From a virus: DNA of 24,166 bases. A model generated the notes under the pieces. It searched no databases. It was not told the origin of the DNA and saw only the letters and a list, made by a program, of their open reading frames with translations. A program made the position numbers and the translations under genes. This document shows, one piece after another, positions 7,989 through 17,025 of this stretch (within the stretch, counting starts at the first letter, position 1; each line of letters begins with the position of its first letter). The DNA lies in IMG/VR virus record IMGVR_UViG_3300043570_000913, positions 1 through 24,166 of that record. One strand, written 5' to 3'.

Positions 7989-9664
7989 TGGGATACATAG
8001 TATCTATTAACAGCATACAGATAAATGACGAGCCTATGGGACTCGTTGATGCTTCCGTAGAGATGTCGAGAGACCAAGATATGAAAATGGTTTTCAGTAA
8101 GTTCATATCTGATTTAGTTTTTTGGGGAGATGGCTATTCTGTTCTAAAGTCACAAATAGCATTATTAAGCAATATTTGCGATGCAGTTCCAATAAGCATA
8201 GTGGAAGATTGCGCAAATGGCTTTGAGTTTAATGGCGTTATATTTCCTTCTGATATAGAAGAGAATCTTACTAAATGCACAATAAAGGCTACCATAGAAG
8301 ATGATGATCTTGAGTCTCGAATAGTTAGGTTAAAAGACTTGTCCGTTACGATAAATGGCGGAAAGACTTTAAATGGATTGGCTCTTGCAAATCTAACGAC
8401 AACAACTCTTGCTGGAAGGCAGTATTGGTATTTAAAAGACGTGCTTCAGTATATAGTAAGCTACATTACAGACTCATCTGTATCTATTGACTCTTCTTTA
8501 ATAAACACAAATGTTTTTAGGCAACAGGTCTTAATTATTGCTATATCGGGAGCAATCCCAACTGCTGGGCAGACATTGGTTATTTCTTATGTGGACATTT
8601 ATGGTAAGCTGCAAACAATTAATTTTACATACACCGCAACTCTTACATTAGAGCAAGAGCTTCGAATAGCTTTAAATCAAAACGTAGTATCATTAAGCAA
8701 TCTTGGTGGTATAGACTTTACTTTCCCTATCTCAACAGAGTTTAATTTACCTACTGGATTAAGGTTAGAATTTTGGAATACATCTAATTTTTCTATAAAC
8801 TCTTCGGGAATGCCGGGGGTTGTGTTCACCATAACTCAGCAGCAGTCTTATTCTTATGGATTGGCTAACGTGCTGATTTCGCCCGATATAATTTATAGAG
8901 CAGTATCTCCAGCTACTCCAGCCACAAATACAACCGGACTTTCTTTCTTGGATGTATTTACTCCTATAAATTCAATGGCAAATGTGGCTATGAAATTTTA
9001 TAGGTCAGGAAGCTCAAGTTTTCTTAAAATAGAGCCTGAGGAAGACTTTTTTAATTCTTCTTCTCTTTCTATATCTGTAAGAGAAGTAAAGGATTTAATT
9101 AAAAGACCATACGACCAATGGGGTATATCTGAATTAGAGGTGTCTTCTTCTGCGAGTGATATATGGAATATATTCAATAGCAATGGATATGTTGGTGAGA
9201 TATGCGGAAACTCAGACTATACTGCAAATTTTGGAAGATTTAACCAAGCTGGCTCAGGTTCTTCAGAAGATTATGTTTATGTAACAAATTTTTTCTCTTC
9301 CACTCCTTTTGACGGAACATATACAATTTCTTGGAGAGCAGGAGGGTCTGTTTCAAGTGCGCTTATAGGTGGCGTTATTCAAATGTCTCACTATTTAGTA
9401 GCAAGACAATGGGCGTTTAGGGCAAATACTCTTACTTACAGAGGTAATGAAATGAAAAATCCAAATGCTCTTTTGTTAAATAATGAACTAAGCTTTAGTC
9501 ATCCGTTAACGATATCTGAATACAATACGCTTTCTTCTAATCTTGAAGGGTACTTAAAGGTTAATGCTTTTAGCAACGTATCTTTGGACATTGATGCATA
9601 CGTCCTAAATGTTCAATATAAAATAAAGAACGGCATGACAACCTTTCAACTTATATCAGAATGA
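7988..9664 (+). CDS. Probable distal tail / baseplate protein (558 aa)
   Basis: I choose the ATG at 7988, which shares one base with the tape measure stop (TAATG); GTG at 7982 is possible but less likely. The protein is rich in beta-strand and in Ser, Thr and Asn. The N-terminus (MGYIVSINSIQINDEPMGL) looks like a tail-hub or distal-tail strand pattern. The middle has repeated NTSNF/SSS-type loops. Its place directly after the tape measure is where distal tail and hub proteins are coded. No catalytic motif is seen. Codon use is A+T-rich like the tape measure, so the two probably moved together. Confidence 0.6.
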   Translation: MGYIVSINSIQINDEPMGLVDASVEMSRDQDMKMVFSKFISDLVFWGDGYSVLKSQIALLSNICDAVPISIVEDCANGFEFNGVIFPSDIEENLTKCTIKATIEDDDLESRIVRLKDLSVTINGGKTLNGLALANLTTTTLAGRQYWYLKDVLQYIVSYITDSSVSIDSSLINTNVFRQQVLIIAISGAIPTAGQTLVISYVDIYGKLQTINFTYTATLTLEQELRIALNQNVVSLSNLGGIDFTFPISTEFNLPTGLRLEFWNTSNFSINSSGMPGVVFTITQQQSYSYGLANVLISPDIIYRAVSPATPATNTTGLSFLDVFTPINSMANVAMKFYRSGSSSFLKIEPEEDFFNSSSLSISVREVKDLIKRPYDQWGISELEVSSSASDIWNIFNSNGYVGEICGNSDYTANFGRFNQAGSGSSEDYVYVTNFFSSTPFDGTYTISWRAGGSVSSALIGGVIQMSHYLVARQWAFRANTLTYRGNEMKNPNALLLNNELSFSHPLTISEYNTLSSNLEGYLKVNAFSNVSLDIDAYVLNVQYKIKNGMTTFQLISE

Positions 9665-11079
9665 GTACATACACCATAGTCCCTAACCAGCCTCTCGGAT
9701 GGAGCGCTACAATTCCTACTGACGAATGCGGATGTGATAAGCACGAATACTGCGCTCCACTTTTGTTCGAGTTTAGCAACGCTGTATATGATGCCTACAC
9801 GGCTCGTGCGGTTGCTGATGGGGCATTGCCAAGCGATATCCCCGAGGCTTGTATGGAAGAGATAATGGATGCCTTCTACGAGCTTTCAAGGTCTGTAAGG
9901 TATGTGTCTGAAAACATATCTTTTCTTTATGAAAAAGACGGAGAGGAGCAGGCTTGCGATAACTTAGGAGTAATACTTGAGGATGAGAGGGCAGTTGTAC
10001 TAACTGACGAAACAACTCTTTTAGAGCCTGAGGATAGAGGCTATGTCGCTGGAGCAATAGGATTCAATACACAAGGCGGAGGTCCCGAACCGATCCCTCA
10101 GAGTATGGACTTTACGGCTTACGACTTTCTTGCTCAAGATTGCGTAAACACCTTCGGCTTTACCATTACCCCTGACGATGACTTAGAGTTCCCATGGACT
10201 ATATCAATAACCAATGAATATGGGGATGTTTACGAAATATCAAGCGGAGATGACCCTGCTGCTGCTTTCTCGGTTACTTTTGATATGATTATAGGTCCAA
10301 ATGGATTTACAATTGACGTGCCAGCAGATGGAGAAGCTATATTTGATGGAATAATAAGTCTTCGTGCTATGTTTGTGCCATGTACTTTTGAGCCATTGGG
10401 ACTTGTAACTTCCGAAAGCTCCGAGGTCATTGGAGAGCTTTTTGAATCAGAAGTAAGCCTTGAGACTTTTAACGGCATTGATTATGGAATATTCAATGGC
10501 AAAATAGGTGTATATGAAATTACTCCTGAGTTAAAATGTGCTTACATTAAGTTTGGTTCAGCGTGTTGTTGCACAGAGGTTTTTTACAGCAAGTGCATAA
10601 AGCCGATTACAGACCCTTGCCATACTGTTAAGATAGAATATTGGCAGACACCTACTACAACAGATGGTGCTTTAGGATTTGGTTTCTACTACCCTGCTGC
10701 TACTGTTGGAAATGAGTTCAAGCAATTCATGCGTGTATGGGGCGAGGTTCGCAATCCGCAGTATGATGGCGAAATGGAGATGTATCAAGATAGCTTTGGT
10801 AGAAAGAAAGTAGTGTATGCTGAGAGCAGAGAGTTCCGTAGCTTCATTATAAACTACTCTCCCGAGTACATCCATAATGCTTTGCGCCTTGCTTGCAGAC
10901 ATGATAATTTTGCCCTTACAGACACTAACTATGGCTTGAATGCTGTAAACTTCTTTACTCGCTCGGAGGCTTACTCTCCTTCATGGATAAGGATTAGCAA
11001 GCTTGCTCCAGTTACTTTAGAGGTAGAAAAGCAAGACCAAAACTTAGTTGGTGGTGGCGCAAAAACATTCTGTTCTTAA
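9661..11079 (+). CDS. Probable baseplate/tail structural protein (472 aa) with Cys-rich N-terminus
   Basis: It starts by ATGA overlap with the previous gene. The N-terminus has DECGCDKHEYC (21-31), followed at 43-72 by the YDAYTARAVADG...C segment that recurs in two other proteins of this window (CDS 21789 and 23121). The centre looks like beta-sandwich repeats (TITPDDDLEFPWTISI, VTFDMIIGPNGFTIDVP). The C-terminal third contains CCC (about 302-304) and aromatic-rich strands. It is likely a virion protein, perhaps at the tail tip. No enzyme motif is evident. Confidence 0.5.
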   Translation: MSTYTIVPNQPLGWSATIPTDECGCDKHEYCAPLLFEFSNAVYDAYTARAVADGALPSDIPEACMEEIMDAFYELSRSVRYVSENISFLYEKDGEEQACDNLGVILEDERAVVLTDETTLLEPEDRGYVAGAIGFNTQGGGPEPIPQSMDFTAYDFLAQDCVNTFGFTITPDDDLEFPWTISITNEYGDVYEISSGDDPAAAFSVTFDMIIGPNGFTIDVPADGEAIFDGIISLRAMFVPCTFEPLGLVTSESSEVIGELFESEVSLETFNGIDYGIFNGKIGVYEITPELKCAYIKFGSACCCTEVFYSKCIKPITDPCHTVKIEYWQTPTTTDGALGFGFYYPAATVGNEFKQFMRVWGEVRNPQYDGEMEMYQDSFGRKKVVYAESREFRSFIINYSPEYIHNALRLACRHDNFALTDTNYGLNAVNFFTRSEAYSPSWIRISKLAPVTLEVEKQDQNLVGGGAKTFCS

Positions 11080-11160: not shown

Positions 11161-11706
11161 ATGGCATATTTTGAATATGGCTGTGGCGTACTTCCGAACC
11201 ATGAATTGGTTGCGTGTGGTGTGTATGACAGAGGAGGCATTTCGGCAGTTGGCATCTTGGAATCTGACCATACCATTACTGACTTTTCGAATGCTTCACA
11301 ATATACCGCTAACATTGCAGCAGGTAACTTAAAAGTTATCAAAAACATTCGTGGTACAGTACCCGATGCCTCTCCGGTAGAGGGCGATAATCCAGTAGGA
11401 TGTGGCCCCGATACAATCTTGAATGGTTTTAACTGGACTGCTACATGGCAGGACGCTAACACCACAAGCAATACGATTGACTTTTACTCTGCATTGAACA
11501 CTCGTACTACTGAGTTAGTATTGTTCTTATGTGGCAGTAACGAAGTTCTTGTAGTAGACAACAAAGTGAATTATGTTTGCAACCCAGTAATGGTCCCTGC
11601 TAACAATAAGGAACTTCAGATGTTCAATTGTACTGCTCGTGCTTCAATCGGTCCAAGCGAATTGCCTCAGAAGTACACAGCACCTGCTGGAATCTTCGAG
11701 CTTTAG
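11161..11706 (+). CDS. Putative major tail tube protein (181 aa)
   Basis: The 181-residue protein is beta-rich, with strands such as AVGILESDHTITDF, FNWTATWQDANTTS, TELVLFLCGSNEVLVVDNK and KELQMFNCTARASIG. This pattern and size fit siphophage tail tube proteins, which stack as hexamers around the tape measure. It has its own promoter, an untranslated leader and a strong terminator. It also prefers C-ending codons for Asn, Phe and Tyr and CGT for Arg, as expected of an abundant product. Its place after the baseplate genes is unusual. It could instead be another abundant virion protein. Confidence 0.5.
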   Translation: MAYFEYGCGVLPNHELVACGVYDRGGISAVGILESDHTITDFSNASQYTANIAAGNLKVIKNIRGTVPDASPVEGDNPVGCGPDTILNGFNWTATWQDANTTSNTIDFYSALNTRTTELVLFLCGSNEVLVVDNKVNYVCNPVMVPANNKELQMFNCTARASIGPSELPQKYTAPAGIFEL

Positions 11707-11729
11707 TAACTGCATTGCTGATCGCAGCG

Positions 11730-11766
11730 AACCCCAGTCTTTAAGTAGGCTGGGGTTTATTTTTGT
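11730..11766 (+). terminator. Intrinsic terminator after the tail tube gene
   Basis: AACCCCAG (11730-11737) pairs perfectly with CTGGGGTT (11750-11757) around a 12-base loop, followed by TATTTTTG. This isolates the tail tube transcript from the glycan cassette. Confidence 0.8.
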
Positions 11767-11826: not shown

Positions 11827-11844
11827 ATAAGGTTATGACCTTAT
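11827..11844. repeat. Inverted repeat upstream of the cassette promoter
   Basis: ATAAGGT (11827-11833) and ACCTTAT (11838-11844) are perfect 7-bp complements around TATG. The site lies 12 bp upstream of the -33 element at 11857. It is a good candidate operator or activator site. Confidence 0.45.
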
Positions 11845-11856
11845 GCAAATAATGAT

Positions 11857-11888
11857 TTTGTTGATTGACAATTAATTACTTAAATTTG
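11857..11888 (+). promoter_or_regulatory. Strong promoter for the glycan cassette
   Basis: TTTG (11857-11860) and TAAATTTG (11881-11888) are separated by 20 nt, the same geometry as the terminase promoter. The ATG follows 3 nt after the -7 box, so the transcript is probably leaderless. This also places the true gene start at 11892. Confidence 0.75.
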
Positions 11889-11891
11889 GGC

Positions 11892-12815
11892 ATGACTACT
11901 GGAATTATTATGATGGCTTTTGGAAAGCCCTCATATTACCAAATGGCTTACAACCTTGCGTTGTCCATTAGGTTCTTCGACAAGGACATCCCTATTCAGT
12001 TAGTACACGATGACCAATGGGGCATTGTAGATGACGAGAAGTGGGTTTTCACTCATTTAACAAAGGTTGATAAAGAAGACTTGTTCGCTGATGGCAAGTT
12101 CTCTCCCGGTAAGGCAAAGACCCGAATAGACAAGTATCTGATGTTTGATAACAACATCTATCTTGATGTGGACGGCATTTGCTTGAAGCCTATCGCTCCT
12201 TTGATTGAGCAGCTATCTAAGCTTGATGGCTACTTCTACTCACAGACTGCTGCGTGGATGACCCCTGATGGTAAGACTCCAAAGGCTAATTTGAAGCGTG
12301 ATGGCAACAACTTCCCCGAGATGCAATGGGCAACCTTGGAAACCATTTGGGAATTCCATAAGCTAAAGGATGATGCAGAGGTTGTTGCTATTAACAGCTC
12401 ATTCATGTACTTGAAGAGGGGAGCAAAGCTTACTAAGTTCTACGATCAGGTAAGGGACAACATTGATAATGGCATTCCGATAGATAGGCTTGCTATGCCT
12501 TGGGGCAACACATACCCTGATGAGCTTGCATATAATATTGCTTGCGCTCAGTTTAAGGTTGACCCATTTGCAGGAGTTAACCCAGTCATGTTTCAATACC
12601 TTAATCCACTTAGGGACATTCCTGGTATGCACGAAAAGTATTACTTTTTAGGATTGTATGGCGGTATTGGATTTACCCATGTATCTGCTTGGGAGTATTC
12701 AGACAGATTACTACGAGTGTATCACAAAGAGCTTGGGTTGCTTCACAAATACAAGTGGCACTACTTAGTAAAAGACAAACACGCAGGTAAATCTAAACTA
12801 TTAGTTAAGCGATGA
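11892..12815 (+). CDS. Glycosyltransferase with DxD motif (GT-A type)
   Basis: The start is ATG 11892, not the in-frame TTG 11865, because the -7 promoter box occupies 11881-11888. The protein (307 aa) begins MTTGIIMMAFGKPSYYQMAY, a nucleotide-sugar-binding first strand, and has the metal-binding DxD motif in YLDVDG (D92-V-D94). This is the GT-A fold pattern, nearest to GT8-like enzymes by eye. It should transfer a sugar from a UDP- or similar donor; donor and acceptor are unknown. It heads a cassette of three glycosyltransferases and a methyltransferase and overlaps the next gene by ATGA. The C-terminus is basic. Confidence 0.75.
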   Translation: MTTGIIMMAFGKPSYYQMAYNLALSIRFFDKDIPIQLVHDDQWGIVDDEKWVFTHLTKVDKEDLFADGKFSPGKAKTRIDKYLMFDNNIYLDVDGICLKPIAPLIEQLSKLDGYFYSQTAAWMTPDGKTPKANLKRDGNNFPEMQWATLETIWEFHKLKDDAEVVAINSSFMYLKRGAKLTKFYDQVRDNIDNGIPIDRLAMPWGNTYPDELAYNIACAQFKVDPFAGVNPVMFQYLNPLRDIPGMHEKYYFLGLYGGIGFTHVSAWEYSDRLLRVYHKELGLLHKYKWHYLVKDKHAGKSKLLVKR

Positions 12816-13450
12816 AAGTAAGTATTATAACTACCTGCAAGGGCAGGCTAAGCCATCTGAAAGAAACTCTACCAACTTGGCTTGAGCAGCAAGGAAAGAC
12901 TACCTACGAGATAATTGTAGTAGACTACGCTGACCCCGATGGCAGCTACGACTATGTTGCCTCTTTGGGCAATTCTAAAGTTAAGGCTATAAAGGCTACG
13001 GATTGTGGCGATTACTTTAACTTGAGCAGAGCAAGGAATATTGGCGCATTAGAGGCTCGTGGAGACGTCCTTTTCTTCTTGGATGCAGATGCGTACCTTG
13101 AGCCAAAGTTCTTGCATTACCACGTCTCTAAAGTGCTTGTAGATGGAAGCTACGTTACTGGCTGGGGCTATGGAGATGGAACTGGCTGCTGCTTGGTTTG
13201 GAAGAGAGACTTCTTGGCTGTAAGAGGCTACAATGAAGTAGTGGATGGCTGGGGATTTGATGATATTGATTTCTACTACCGATTAGACCAAAAGTTTAGC
13301 ATTGACCATAAAAAGTTTTCTTTTGGCTTGACTACAATTAAACATAGCGATGATGAGCGTGTTTCTTTTTATAGAAACGGCAATCTCTCTCGAACTAATT
13401 TATTGAACGAGCAGAAGACTAAAAGAAGGTTTGTTAGCTGTATTCAATGA
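12812..13450 (+). CDS. Glycosyltransferase family 2
   Basis: The 212-residue protein opens with the GT2 strand MKVSIITTCKGRLSHLKETL and has EIIVVDYADPDG (33-44), NLSRARNIGALEARGDVLFF (70-89) and the metal-binding motif DAD (D91-A-D93). Further on GWGFDDIDFYYRL (146-158) matches the W-G-x-[ED]-D-x-D acceptor motif found in galactosyltransferase-type GT2/GT7 enzymes. It overlaps both neighbours by ATGA. It probably adds the second sugar of a short glycan built by this cassette; linkage is not predictable. The size is that of a compact catalytic domain with no membrane helix, so it is cytoplasmic. Confidence 0.85.
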   Translation: MKVSIITTCKGRLSHLKETLPTWLEQQGKTTYEIIVVDYADPDGSYDYVASLGNSKVKAIKATDCGDYFNLSRARNIGALEARGDVLFFLDADAYLEPKFLHYHVSKVLVDGSYVTGWGYGDGTGCCLVWKRDFLAVRGYNEVVDGWGFDDIDFYYRLDQKFSIDHKKFSFGLTTIKHSDDERVSFYRNGNLSRTNLLNEQKTKRRFVSCIQ

Positions 13451-14331
13451 ATGAACATCCTATTATTTTGAGCAAGCCTACTAAAATAAGAGTTATAACG
13501 AATTGGTGTGATAGCTTTTCTATCCATGATAGGATTATCGACCAATTTGTAAGCACTAAGCAGCTAAAGGATAACATACACTTTGTTACCGATGACTCTT
13601 ACGAGTGGCTTATTGTCTTTAACGACAAGAAGGACTTTGATGTTAAAGTGCCTAAAGAAAATGTTATAGGCTTTATACAAGAGCCACCTAACCACGATTT
13701 CTTCGATAGGAATATCGGAAGCTATTGCGGAGTTGTTTATACCTGCACAGAGCCTTCTGCTTACGGCATAGAGGGAAATATTGTAGGCTTCCCTGCTGGT
13801 ATGTTCTATCATATGGATGGAGATGTAGAGGAGTTCTTAGAGCCGATAGAGAAGAGTAAAACCCTATCTATGATTACCTCGGGTATCCGTGGTGGATTCT
13901 ATGAGCATAGGCACAACCTGGCGAGAGCTTTGGCTTCTTCTAACTTCTGCGATGTGTATGGCAGAGGATTGGCTTATAGAGGCGTAAAGGGAGAGTTAAG
14001 GAATAAGGCTAATGGACTACTGCCTTATAAGTTCTCTGTCTGCATGGAGAATGGCATTTGGGATGACTACATTTCTGACAAGATTATAGATGCTGTGCTA
14101 TGCTCCACTATCCCTATTTATGTAGGAGCAAGGAACATAAAGAAGCACATTCCCTTCGCTATCCAACTACAATCCTTCGAATCCCCGAGACACGCACTAA
14201 ACGAAATAAACGAAATCATTCAATCGGTAAATTACGATGAATACATTTCGGACCTTAATAAGTGGAAGAGAAAGTACCTAAAGCATTACAATATTTATGA
14301 AAGAATCAAAAAAACAATCCAGCAAGCTTGA
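13447..14331 (+). CDS. Glycosyltransferase family 10 (fucosyltransferase-like)
   Basis: The 294-residue protein has the GT10 signature in its C-terminal half: YKFSVCMENG (194-203), DDYISDKIIDAVLCSTIPIY (206-225) then VGARNIKKHIPF. These match the family pattern Y-x-F-x-x-x-x-E-N-x(n)-D-Y-[VI]-[TS]-[ED]-K-x(n)-P-[VI]-x-x-G. The N-terminal half has GFIQEPP (75-81), also typical. Family members transfer fucose from GDP-fucose, but some phage and bacterial relatives use other donors. It starts at ATGA. The end overlaps the next gene by 35 nt through an A7 run. Confidence 0.85.
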   Translation: MNEHPIILSKPTKIRVITNWCDSFSIHDRIIDQFVSTKQLKDNIHFVTDDSYEWLIVFNDKKDFDVKVPKENVIGFIQEPPNHDFFDRNIGSYCGVVYTCTEPSAYGIEGNIVGFPAGMFYHMDGDVEEFLEPIEKSKTLSMITSGIRGGFYEHRHNLARALASSNFCDVYGRGLAYRGVKGELRNKANGLLPYKFSVCMENGIWDDYISDKIIDAVLCSTIPIYVGARNIKKHIPFAIQLQSFESPRHALNEINEIIQSVNYDEYISDLNKWKRKYLKHYNIYERIKKTIQQA

Positions 14332-14605
14332 TGTTAAGGATGGCTTTCTTTTCTGTGAGATAGCTCATTACACCAGCTCCAGCGTTCCTAAGATAGACTA
14401 CGATGCTTTGGGTATTCGTCCTCCCGAAGAGGATAGCGATGGAGACTTTATATTCAGAGATGCTGCTTTTGCTTTGAGTCAGATAGATGCCTTACTACAA
14501 ATCTCTGACGATTCTGAGGGATTCCCGAGGATGATGATTCTTATGGTTGAAGACAAGTTTATAGCAAAGGGATTGGTAGCAGACATTAAAAGCAAGCTAA
14601 TATGA
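14297..14605 (+). CDS. Small protein of the glycan cassette (102 aa), function unknown
   Basis: The protein starts MKESKKQSSKLDVKDGFLFC and overlaps the GT10 gene by 35 nt in another frame. There is no later in-frame Met before residue 79, so the start seems right. It has an acidic mid-section (RPPEEDSDGDFIFRD) and a C-terminal helix. It forms ATGA with the methyltransferase gene. It may be a partner of one of the enzymes. A one-base slip in the A7 run (14308-14314) would fuse it to the GT10 protein. No family is recognised. Confidence 0.55.
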   Translation: MKESKKQSSKLDVKDGFLFCEIAHYTSSSVPKIDYDALGIRPPEEDSDGDFIFRDAAFALSQIDALLQISDDSEGFPRMMILMVEDKFIAKGLVADIKSKLI

Positions 14606-15213
14606 AAGAGATACATAGAATCATATCGAAGGTTTTAAGAGGGATAGAATCCCCTATCATTGTTGAAATAGGAGCGCATAAGGGAGAGGATACTATGCTT
14701 CTTGCTACTGTGCCTAATAGCTATGTACACGCCTTTGAATGCGACCCACGCAATCAGATAACGAGAATCCCTTTCAATGTTAAGGTGAACTACAAGGCTG
14801 TATCTGATAAAGATGGCATGATGGACTTTTGGCTTAGTGAGAGAGCTGGCTCTCAATGGAGTTGCTCTTCGAGCCTTATGCAGCCTAAGAGTCATTTAGA
14901 TCAGCATCCCGATATTCGCTTCGACCAAAGGGTGCAAGTTAAGTCTACGAAGCTTACCACCTACTGCAAGGATAACAACATTCCTCACATTGACTTTTTG
15001 TGGATGGATGCACAAGGTGCTGAGGCTATCATTATAGAGGCTTCCATAGAGGCAATACAAAGAACCTCTTGGATTTACACCGAGTATAGTAATAAGGAAG
15101 ATTTCCTTGGTCAAAAATCCTTAGATGAAATTATGTTAATTTTGGGGGAGGATTGGGAAGTAGAAAAAATGTGGGATTGGGATGTCCTTTTAAAAAATAA
15201 ACGCTATGTGTAA
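14602..15213 (+). CDS. FkbM-family methyltransferase
   Basis: The 203-residue protein has the SAM-binding motif I IVEIGAHKGEDT (residues 20-31), motif II HAFECDPRN (43-51) and the FkbM signature IDFLWMDAQGAE (130-141). FkbM enzymes O-methylate sugars or other small acceptors. As the last gene of the cassette, it probably methylates a sugar added by the three glycosyltransferases, capping the glycan. It is soluble and of normal length. It begins by ATGA overlap and ends 24 nt before the portal gene, with a tiny ORF bridging the two. Confidence 0.88.
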   Translation: MKEIHRIISKVLRGIESPIIVEIGAHKGEDTMLLATVPNSYVHAFECDPRNQITRIPFNVKVNYKAVSDKDGMMDFWLSERAGSQWSCSSSLMQPKSHLDQHPDIRFDQRVQVKSTKLTTYCKDNNIPHIDFLWMDAQGAEAIIIEASIEAIQRTSWIYTEYSNKEDFLGQKSLDEIMLILGEDWEVEKMWDWDVLLKNKRYV

Positions 15214-15241
15214 GTGTGGTAAAAGAGGAGGAAAGCGATGA
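15206..15241 (+). CDS. Possible micro-ORF MCKCGKRGGKR bridging FkbM and portal genes
   Basis: An 11-codon ORF starts in the last codons of the FkbM gene and ends in an ATGA overlap with the portal start (15238). It encodes a basic peptide with C-x-C. Its GGA-GGA codons also create AGGAGG, a perfect SD core placed 6 nt before the portal ATG, rare in this genome. It could be a coupling device or simply the SD region read as protein. Confidence 0.3.
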   Translation: MCKCGKRGGKR

Positions 15242-17025
15242 CTATCGAACAAGCAACAGAATTGCTTGCGAACATCGCTAAAGAATACGCTGTTTACGAG
15301 CAGAAGAAGAAGTCTAATAAGGACTACGTTCCAAACTTCTATCCCACCTATCGTGAATGCGTAGAGATGGCTGAACGGCTTCGCATCCATTCGGACTACG
15401 ATGCCTTCCCTGAGAAGCTATTCCGTGAGAAAGCACCCAATGAATTGCCTCATGAGTTTAACTATCGTAAGGCTATTTATAGACCCGTTACTGTTCCTTA
15501 TTTCCATAAGGCTATTAACATTGCTGGTAGGGTTTGGAATAGGCAGAACTACGAGTTGAGATTCGACAATGCCAACCAAGAGCGGTATTTCAATGAGGAA
15601 TACCCAAGATTTGGAAGCCTTGACAACTATTTCCAACAGATTGTAAGCTTTGAAACGCTAACAGACCCTAATGCTGTAATGGCTATTATGCCTATTAACT
15701 TGCAGTACTACGAGAATGGCGATTTCAATGATTCGATAGAAGTTACGCCAGTATCATATTGCTTTAAGAGCAAGCGTGTATGGGCATGGAAAGATGAGGA
15801 ATTTGCCATTATTAAGTCTGACCAAAAGAGTTTGGTTAAGGTTTCTACCAATGGCAGAGAAGAGGAAGAGGGATTGGTTTTGTTTATCTTCGATAAGAAC
15901 GAAATTCAGATAGCCAAGCAGGTTGGTAATAAGGCAGACTTCATCTTCGAGATTGAGCTGTACTACCGACATGAATTAGGCTACCTTCCATGCAGAAGAC
16001 TTGGTGGCATTTCCGTGCAAGAGTCGGGAGACTACTACTATCAATCTTTCTATACTCCAGCTATTCCTGCTCTTGACCAAGCGGTGAGTGATTTCTCTAC
16101 CTTGCAGATTTCTAAATTCAGCCATGCGTTCTTGCAGAAGTGGGAATACGTTGATGAGTGCGATACTTGTAATGGCTCAGGAGAAGTAGAGGGTGCTATC
16201 GGCTTTGAAGAAAAGGTAGCTATTGCTTGTAGCAGTTGTGGTGGCTCAGGCACTAAGCGTATGTTTGGTCCCATGAATGTCTACCAAGTACAAGCTCCTA
16301 ACCGCTTTACCTCCGAGGTAGAGACTAAGGTAAACATTCCTCCTGCTGGCTTTATTGATGTGAAGCATGACATCCTTGAGTTCTTGAATAAGCAGGTTAT
16401 TACCAACATTCAGATGGCTTTCGAGCTATTGAGTATTGACGTAATGAACAACGAGAAGATTTCGGGCAGAGAGACCGCTACTGGTAAGGCTATCGACAGA
16501 GAGGAGTTGTATTCTTTCTTGCTTCGCTTTGCTAATACTGTATTCGATGACTTCGAGTTTGCCATAGATACTATTGGCTCTATGCGCTATCGTAACGAGT
16601 GGAGTATGCCAGCAGTTCGCTATCCGCAGAACTTTGAGATGCGTACTGACGCAGAGCTTACCGAAGAGATTAAGAATGCTCCTAACTTCTCTCGTGCTAT
16701 GCTTGCACAGCAGTACTTAGAAACTCGCTTCCCTATCCAAGAGATTAAGAGTGCTATCATGAAGCTTTCCGTTCAAATCGACCCATACTTCAACCTTGAT
16801 GCTAAAGATGTGATGGCATTGGTTGCTTCGGGTATTGCTGAGAAATGGAAGGCTGTAATGCACTTCGAGATTGAGGCTATTGTGAAGGCTCTTGTTGAAG
16901 AGGACCAAGCATTCTTGGATAAGCCTATGCTTGAGCAGAAGGCTATGATAGAAGCTAAAGCTAAGGAGATGACTCCAGCAGTACAGAATGGACTTAATGT
17001 AGATGCTATTATTGGCGCACAATGA
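15238..17025 (+). CDS. Portal protein with embedded zinc finger
   Basis: This 595-residue protein precedes a MuF-type head protein, scaffold candidate and capsid gene. Its size, alpha/beta content and position fit a dodecameric portal that sits at the head vertex and conducts DNA. The N-terminal region has the long helices common in portals. Residues 308-338 hold two DnaJ-like motifs, C308-D-T-C311-N-G-S-G and C331-S-S-C334-G-G-S-G, which should bind one zinc ion. That insertion is uncommon for portals in general. Translation is helped by an AGGAGG 6 nt before the ATG. It overlaps the next gene by ATGA. A direct portal signature is not visible by eye, so context carries weight. Confidence 0.8.
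   Translation: MTIEQATELLANIAKEYAVYEQKKKSNKDYVPNFYPTYRECVEMAERLRIHSDYDAFPEKLFREKAPNELPHEFNYRKAIYRPVTVPYFHKAINIAGRVWNRQNYELRFDNANQERYFNEEYPRFGSLDNYFQQIVSFETLTDPNAVMAIMPINLQYYENGDFNDSIEVTPVSYCFKSKRVWAWKDEEFAIIKSDQKSLVKVSTNGREEEEGLVLFIFDKNEIQIAKQVGNKADFIFEIELYYRHELGYLPCRRLGGISVQESGDYYYQSFYTPAIPALDQAVSDFSTLQISKFSHAFLQKWEYVDECDTCNGSGEVEGAIGFEEKVAIACSSCGGSGTKRMFGPMNVYQVQAPNRFTSEVETKVNIPPAGFIDVKHDILEFLNKQVITNIQMAFELLSIDVMNNEKISGRETATGKAIDREELYSFLLRFANTVFDDFEFAIDTIGSMRYRNEWSMPAVRYPQNFEMRTDAELTEEIKNAPNFSRAMLAQQYLETRFPIQEIKSAIMKLSVQIDPYFNLDAKDVMALVASGIAEKWKAVMHFEIEAIVKALVEEDQAFLDKPMLEQKAMIEAKAKEMTPAVQNGLNVDAIIGAQ

Follow-up and report, generated by a model that had tools for sequence, protein, structure and literature searches.

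A glycan-building gene cassette at a fixed site between the tail-tube-like and portal genes of uncultivated tailed phages, with distal genes that are exchanged between relatives

Why do genes for building a glycan lie among the genes that build a tailed phage particle, and what do their products decorate? The question is raised by an uncultivated tailed phage that is represented by a fragment of 24,166 bases (IMG/VR virus record IMGVR_UViG_3300043570_000913, positions 1–24,166; hereafter the window), in which the gene order is terminase, tape-measure, two tail proteins, tube-like protein, a cassette of glycan genes, portal and head genes. The cassette consists of five plus-strand genes (11892–15213) between the tail-tube-like gene and the portal gene, and its successive open reading frames (ORFs) overlap by 4, 4, 35 and 4 nt. 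We consider it rather likely, from gene content and predicted products, that these genes form a self-contained soluble pathway which glycosylates a structural protein of the phage itself in the host cytoplasm.

Enzymes of the cassette

The five genes are:
11892–12815, + strand: ORF1, GT8-like glycosyltransferase (GT) of the GT-A type (fold, DxD; the invariant gene of the cassette)
12812–13450, + strand: ORF2, GT2 glycosyltransferase (PF00535)
13447–14331, + strand: ORF3, GT10 (fucosyltransferase-type) glycosyltransferase (PF00852)
14297–14605, + strand: ORF4, fast-evolving protein of 102 aa, present in the window's own clade only
14602–15213, + strand: ORF5, FkbM-family class I methyltransferase (PF05050, TIGR01444)

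A preliminary description of the window had named three glycosyltransferases (DxD GT-A type, GT2 and GT10), a small protein and an FkbM methyltransferase in five tightly overlapped ORFs; all five are present there, and the assignments are borne out by Pfam, the DxD motif and a GT-A model. ORF2 (56.4 bits against a curated cut-off of 23.3 for PF00535, 4.6e-15), ORF3 (52.7 against 23.9 for PF00852, 5.5e-14) and ORF5 (54.6 against 22.7 for PF05050, 1.9e-14, and 53.7 against 37.7 for TIGR01444, 2.9e-14) all score above the thresholds of their families. ORF3 also aligns with the solved alpha-1,3-fucosyltransferases 5zoi and 2nzw (2e-7) over an EKIIDA-type motif, and GDP-fucose is a candidate donor for it; ORF5 would O-methylate the glycan. 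ORF4 has no match in Pfam, PHROGs or NCBIfam and is confined to the seven loci of the window's own clade.

ORF1 was compared by fold because a search of PDB sequences with its profile returned no match; in Pfam it has a weak match to PF11051 (14.3 bits against a cut-off of 22). An AlphaFold model built from 22 relatives (predicted local distance difference test score, pLDDT, 87.5) has a GT-A fold, and the DxD of ORF1 (D92, D94) is invariant in the alignment of homologues. Structural matches of the model include LARGE1 (Z 17.6), glycogenin (Z 16.9), GlyE (Z 16.6) and UGGT (Z 16.4), with the Skp1 galactosyltransferase also among them (overall Z 16–17.6). On the modelled fold and the DxD, ORF1 is predicted to be a GT-A enzyme of the GT8 kind. 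Many of these fold matches act on proteins, yet the Foldseek list also includes LgtC- and WbbM-type enzymes, so the fold alone is no proof of protein priming.

Ratios of nonsynonymous to synonymous substitution (dN/dS), computed against L003, the nearest clade, were 0.05 for ORF1, 0.08 for both the GT2 and the GT10 gene, 0.14 for the FkbM gene and 0.44 for ORF4, with portal (0.07) and presumed capsid gene (0.08) as controls. Four of the five cassette genes are thus under strong purifying selection and ORF1 is constrained as much as the portal; these low values also indicate that the ORFs are not chance occurrences. No transmembrane segment was found in the predicted coding regions of the cassette products (the single high hydropathy value, 2.04 in ORF1, lies in an over-extension upstream of the real ATG), so they would act in the cytoplasm.

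A fixed first gene and exchanged distal genes

A portal search of IMG/VR yielded 77 relatives, and counts for the site refer to the 45 loci, the window among them, in which the tube-like gene and the start of the portal are both present; genes in these loci were called with a plus-strand ORF caller, which over-extended some ORF1 and tube starts. ORF1 lies between the tube-like gene and the portal in 45 of the 45 loci, GT10 is present in 42 and GT2 in 39. Dozens of relatives from fresh water thus retain the first enzyme in an unchanged position while the rest is swapped. The check proposed in the preliminary description, a search of relatives for the same cassette at the same site, is therefore strongly positive, and it extends to two distant groups whose portals are only about 25–34% identical. 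In the second group (L155, L164–L168) the order tube-like gene, ORF1 homologue, methyltransferase, portal is kept; the portal and capsid gene of L155 are 25% and 20% identical to those of the window, its tube-like gene is 35% identical to the nearest clade-1 homologue and its ORF1 homologue 33%. The third group, L169 (QQVM01000017.1, a 353-kb contig of a Bacteroidetes metagenome-assembled genome, MAG), has a tube-like gene (33%) at the same place as L155 does, followed by an ORF1 homologue, three variable genes and the portal. L169 is either a prophage or a large phage, and contains a 766-aa protein that starts with this ORF1 homologue and continues into a C-terminal part of no assigned identity.

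Cultured phages offer little comparison: the sole match to ORF1 in a search of them was a metagenomic phage of 484 kb that lacks annotation, and no match to the region was found in INPHARED by blastn. The cultured phage with the nearest portal (23%), Polaribacter phage P12002L, carries no cassette in front of that gene. The distant groups, with their Bacteroidetes MAG contig, and the Bacteroidota-type promoter boxes described below point to Bacteroidota hosts, and by extension would give the window's own phage such a host.

The distal genes follow a different course. Their sets fall into 13 architectures (counts leave out the tube-like gene and its mis-called variant, and the clusters C12 and C0 of 382–384 aa with over-extended ORF1 and tube starts), and on the portal-gene tree the fewest changes that explain them number 20, compared with 12 if each had arisen once. 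Portals that are 97–98% identical in nucleotide sequence can accompany different cassette sets. Between pairs with portals at least 95% identical and different architectures, a median of 32% of the cassette is shared at 80% identity or more, and the portal-to-capsid control stretch is shared entirely; this blastn coverage understates shared proximal genes, as long high-scoring segment pairs can drop below the cut, and is used only as a contrast to that control. On the right, homology resumes sharply about 60–75 nt upstream of the portal, and on the left the break falls in or after ORF1, GT2 or GT10. Comparison of L013 and L073 with L015 reveals a chimeric ORF1, near-identical to about residue 105, just past the DxD, and then replaced together with the downstream module.

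Among the variable genes of the relatives are four FkbM-type clusters, other class I methyltransferases, several further glycosyltransferases, an aminotransferase fragment of the DegT/PseC kind, and PglD- and hexapeptide-type acyltransferases. At least one recognisable methyltransferase occurs in every locus except L040, where a PglD-type acyltransferase is found in its place; for three loci the methyltransferase match is weak and does not reach the Pfam cut-offs. The three loci that lack GT10 (L023, L035 and L040) are those with amino-sugar-type genes; the C16 protein that they carry (208 aa) matches only the N-terminal part of DegT/PseC aminotransferases.

This pattern of exchange is that of bacterial surface-polysaccharide loci. 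Like O-antigen and capsule loci, the cassette has conserved flanks and proximal genes with exchangeable distal glycosyltransferase, methyltransferase, aminotransferase and acyltransferase genes; unlike them, it has no recognised flippase, polymerase or lipid-carrier priming enzyme and lies inside a phage structural region. The preliminary description, whose interpretation is otherwise supported in part, had missed this modular exchange of distal genes, the main feature of the locus.

The likely target of the glycan

The resemblance raises the alternative that the cassette remodels the host surface, its enzymes modifying lipopolysaccharide core, capsule precursor or host glycoproteins and so blocking superinfection or keeping progeny from adsorbing to debris. 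Diversity of the glycan and its capping by methylation would also fit an O-antigen-type change, the GT2, GT10 and FkbM families are frequent in surface-polysaccharide loci, and soluble glycosyltransferases can build lipid-linked glycans on the cytoplasmic face of the membrane. However, the locus stays between tube and portal genes across very large divergence, ORF1 is constrained like the portal, and the marks of seroconverting temperate phages are missing. Seroconversion (gtrABC) operons need GtrA and membrane enzymes and are usually carried by temperate phages. We searched for such genes in 12 relatives, most of which are fragments, so that each absence is weaker; one of them, G001 (44.4 kb with a 99-bp terminal repeat), is probably complete. 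GtrA (PF04138) was found in none of the 12 and tyrosine integrase (PF00589) likewise in none, serine integrases not having been searched. The cassette shares phage-borne glycan variation with gtrABC operons but differs in that its products lack membrane segments and that neither GtrA nor integrase was found in these relatives, and an operon of that type is disfavoured. We regard host-surface remodelling as a whole as rather unlikely.

Two further targets were weighed. Phage glycosyltransferases elsewhere glycosylate modified bases of the phage genome (Pyle et al. 2024, as cited in a passage of PMC12619734), and a C5-cytosine DNA methylase is present in the one near-complete relative examined gene by gene; yet TET/JBP (PF12851) and ThyA/dCMP-hydroxymethylase-type (PF00303) genes were found in 0 of the 12 relatives, most of them fragments, and DNA hypermodification would not typically come with amino-sugar genes, capping by FkbM or a place among morphogenesis genes; it strikes us as very improbable here. 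The glycan might instead serve takeover or the evasion of defences and be placed on a host protein, a small molecule or a secreted one, since the acceptor is only a candidate and some enzymes with GT8-like folds modify proteins of the cytoplasm that belong to no virion, examples being glycogenin itself and the Skp1 galactosyltransferase. This we think distinctly unlikely, given the constant linkage to structural genes and the rapid exchange of the outermost steps; such exchange would be expected if the structure is exposed and antigen-like, but not if the target is intracellular.

Decoration of the virion is favoured because the cassette products lack membrane segments, GtrA and tyrosine integrase were not found in the 12 relatives, the cassette is linked to the tube-like gene and ORF1 is strongly constrained. 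We propose that ORF1, with its glycogenin/LARGE/GlyE-like fold, would attach the first sugar to a virion acceptor during assembly, the leading candidate being the tube-like protein encoded just upstream, or else another virion protein. GT2 and GT10 would extend the chain from host nucleotide sugars, GT10 using a 6-deoxyhexose, for example fucose, and FkbM would add a methyl cap. The 12 relatives showed no gene of the epimerase family, so the sugar donors would come from the host. The distal genes would be traded between phages by recombination in the conserved flanks, and near-identical phages would then display different glycans, like serotypes. We infer the acceptor, the order and identity of the sugars, the late timing and the selection for variety. 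The tube-like protein leads among acceptors because of its (weak) tube-type structural matches, and because glycans on mycobacteriophage tubes have been reported. Tail tubes of phages and tube proteins of baseplates make up nearly all of its top structural matches, but Z is only about 6 and the AlphaFold2 model has a pLDDT of 60. The earlier proposal of a pathway for a short, capped glycan is well supported, and its suggestion that the virion is decorated is favoured, though not proven.

Several points weigh against virion decoration. The glycan is predicted from metagenomic sequence; the tube assignment of the gene at 11161 depends on a low-confidence model; ORF1 has no GT8 sequence-family match in Pfam at E 0.1, for which reason we call it GT8-like and do not file it as a GT8 member; and its acceptor is a candidate only. 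Soluble glycosyltransferases could act on host glycolipids at the membrane's cytoplasmic face, and the window's phage is assigned a host only indirectly. Late expression of the cassette is likewise presumptive; by analogy only, late-stage bS21 Bacteroidetes phages of lakes had an FkbM-domain gene among those that they transcribed most (PMC9723584).

To our knowledge, most of what is known of glycosylated virions in tailed phages comes from mycobacteriophages. There, according to a passage of PMC12619734 that cites Freeman et al. 2023, glycans were observed on capsid and tail-tube subunits; phage-encoded glycosyltransferases and, as that passage has it, such acceptors make the likeness to the system proposed here. 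Mycobacteriophages differ in infecting another host phylum, whereas here a GT8-like core enzyme is fixed between tube-like and portal genes and the exchangeable module holds multiple glycosyltransferase, methyltransferase and amino-sugar genes. Paramecium bursaria chlorella virus 1 (PBCV-1; A064R, A061L) similarly uses virus-encoded, soluble, cytoplasmic glycosyltransferases and O-methyltransferases (PMC9614988). Its A064R combines two glycosyltransferase domains with a methyltransferase, which together complete the glycan of the capsid, and A064R mutants are antigenic variants (PMC9614988); the first domain is listed with glycogenin 1LL2 in a table of that review, a fold that ORF1 matches with Z 16.5. 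PBCV-1 differs in that it is a virus of eukaryotic algae, has a genome that runs to hundreds of kb and carries an N-linked glycan on its capsid; its variation was studied through mutants, whereas here whole genes are replaced between wild phages.

Flanking genes, expression signals and implications

Features outside the five genes are:
11161–11706, + strand: tail-tube-like virion gene, left flank (structural matches, conserved position)
11729–11758, + strand: intrinsic terminator stem with T-rich tail, after the tube-like gene (12 pairs, 6 GC)
11827–11844, no strand assigned: 7-bp inverted repeat, ATAAGGT-TATG-ACCTTAT, read from sequence
11856–11888, + strand: Bacteroidota-type promoter, TTTTG then a -7 box TAAATTTG (box at 11881–11888)
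15206–15241, + strand: micro-ORF MCKCGKRGGKR, conserved, where cassette exchange has its right edge (TGA overlapping the ATG of the portal)
15238–17025, + strand: portal protein, right flank (phrog_7376, 5.6e-15)

The position between tail and head genes given in the preliminary description holds, with tape-measure and tube-like genes before the cassette, and portal, scaffold-like and presumed major capsid genes after it. So does the terminator that it placed upstream to isolate the cassette: the stem and T run are present, and relatives have a similar hairpin and T run directly 5' of the GT8-like gene. Of its strong promoter and adjacent inverted repeat, a Bacteroidota-type -7 box was found and the match to an E. 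coli-type promoter is poor; the repeat exists but is absent from the upstream sequence of the nearest relatives, L003 and L004, and is probably unimportant.

The TAAATTTG box ends 3 nt 5' of the ORF1 ATG (11892, a start backed by homologues), so the transcript would be leaderless, and a -7-like box directly precedes the GT8-like start in relatives too. TAnnTTTG-then-ATG sites number 12 on the plus strand and 0 on the minus strand of the window, with 2.25 expected, and several of its structural genes are also preceded by boxes of this type. TAnnTTTG boxes at 2284, 11881, 20179, 21777, 22530 and 23109 (+) stand 2–4 nt before six predicted starts. Such boxes near starts suggest leaderless mRNAs.

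At the position of the micro-ORF an MCKC[RG].. peptide occurs in all clade-1 loci with an intact portal start, in nine DNA versions of which several are synonymous, and two clade-2 loci (L155, L164) have a longer Cys/Gly/Lys-rich ORF with the same kind of end overlap; the micro-ORF may be a coupling leader or, alternatively, a micropeptide. The portal contains, at residues 307–339, an insert that resembles a zinc ribbon of the DnaJ type, with CxxCxGxG (PF00684 at 6e-4, which falls short of the cut-off), and Cys-Gly motifs of a similar kind occur in the distant L155 portal. The tail gene that precedes the tube-like gene, at 9661–11079 (+), also differs among near-identical phages, only its C-terminal part being conserved, apparently independently of the cassette; its product is possibly a receptor-binding or host-range protein.

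Self-glycosylation by viruses is already known, and the cassette adds to it a hypervariable, O-antigen-like glycan locus within the morphogenesis region of a tailed phage. In the literature searched, coverage of which was incomplete, we found no report of a tailed phage in which a GT8-like core gene has a fixed place between the tail genes and the portal and is joined to an exchangeable outer module. A stronger version, which we put forward tentatively and hold to be doubtful as it stands, is that a lineage of Bacteroidota phages has, among its core genes of morphogenesis, one for an obligate protein-priming glycosyltransferase which glycosylates the whole length of the tail tube, with the outer glycan switched by cassette exchange, giving true serotypes under frequency-dependent selection. 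In this widespread uncultivated lineage a glycan enzyme is fixed and constrained like the portal, and outer glycan genes turn over faster than the backbone, which opens to test the purpose of phage surface glycans and the selection behind their diversity. Lake phages may exist in interchangeable glycotypes that taxonomy based on backbone genes overlooks.

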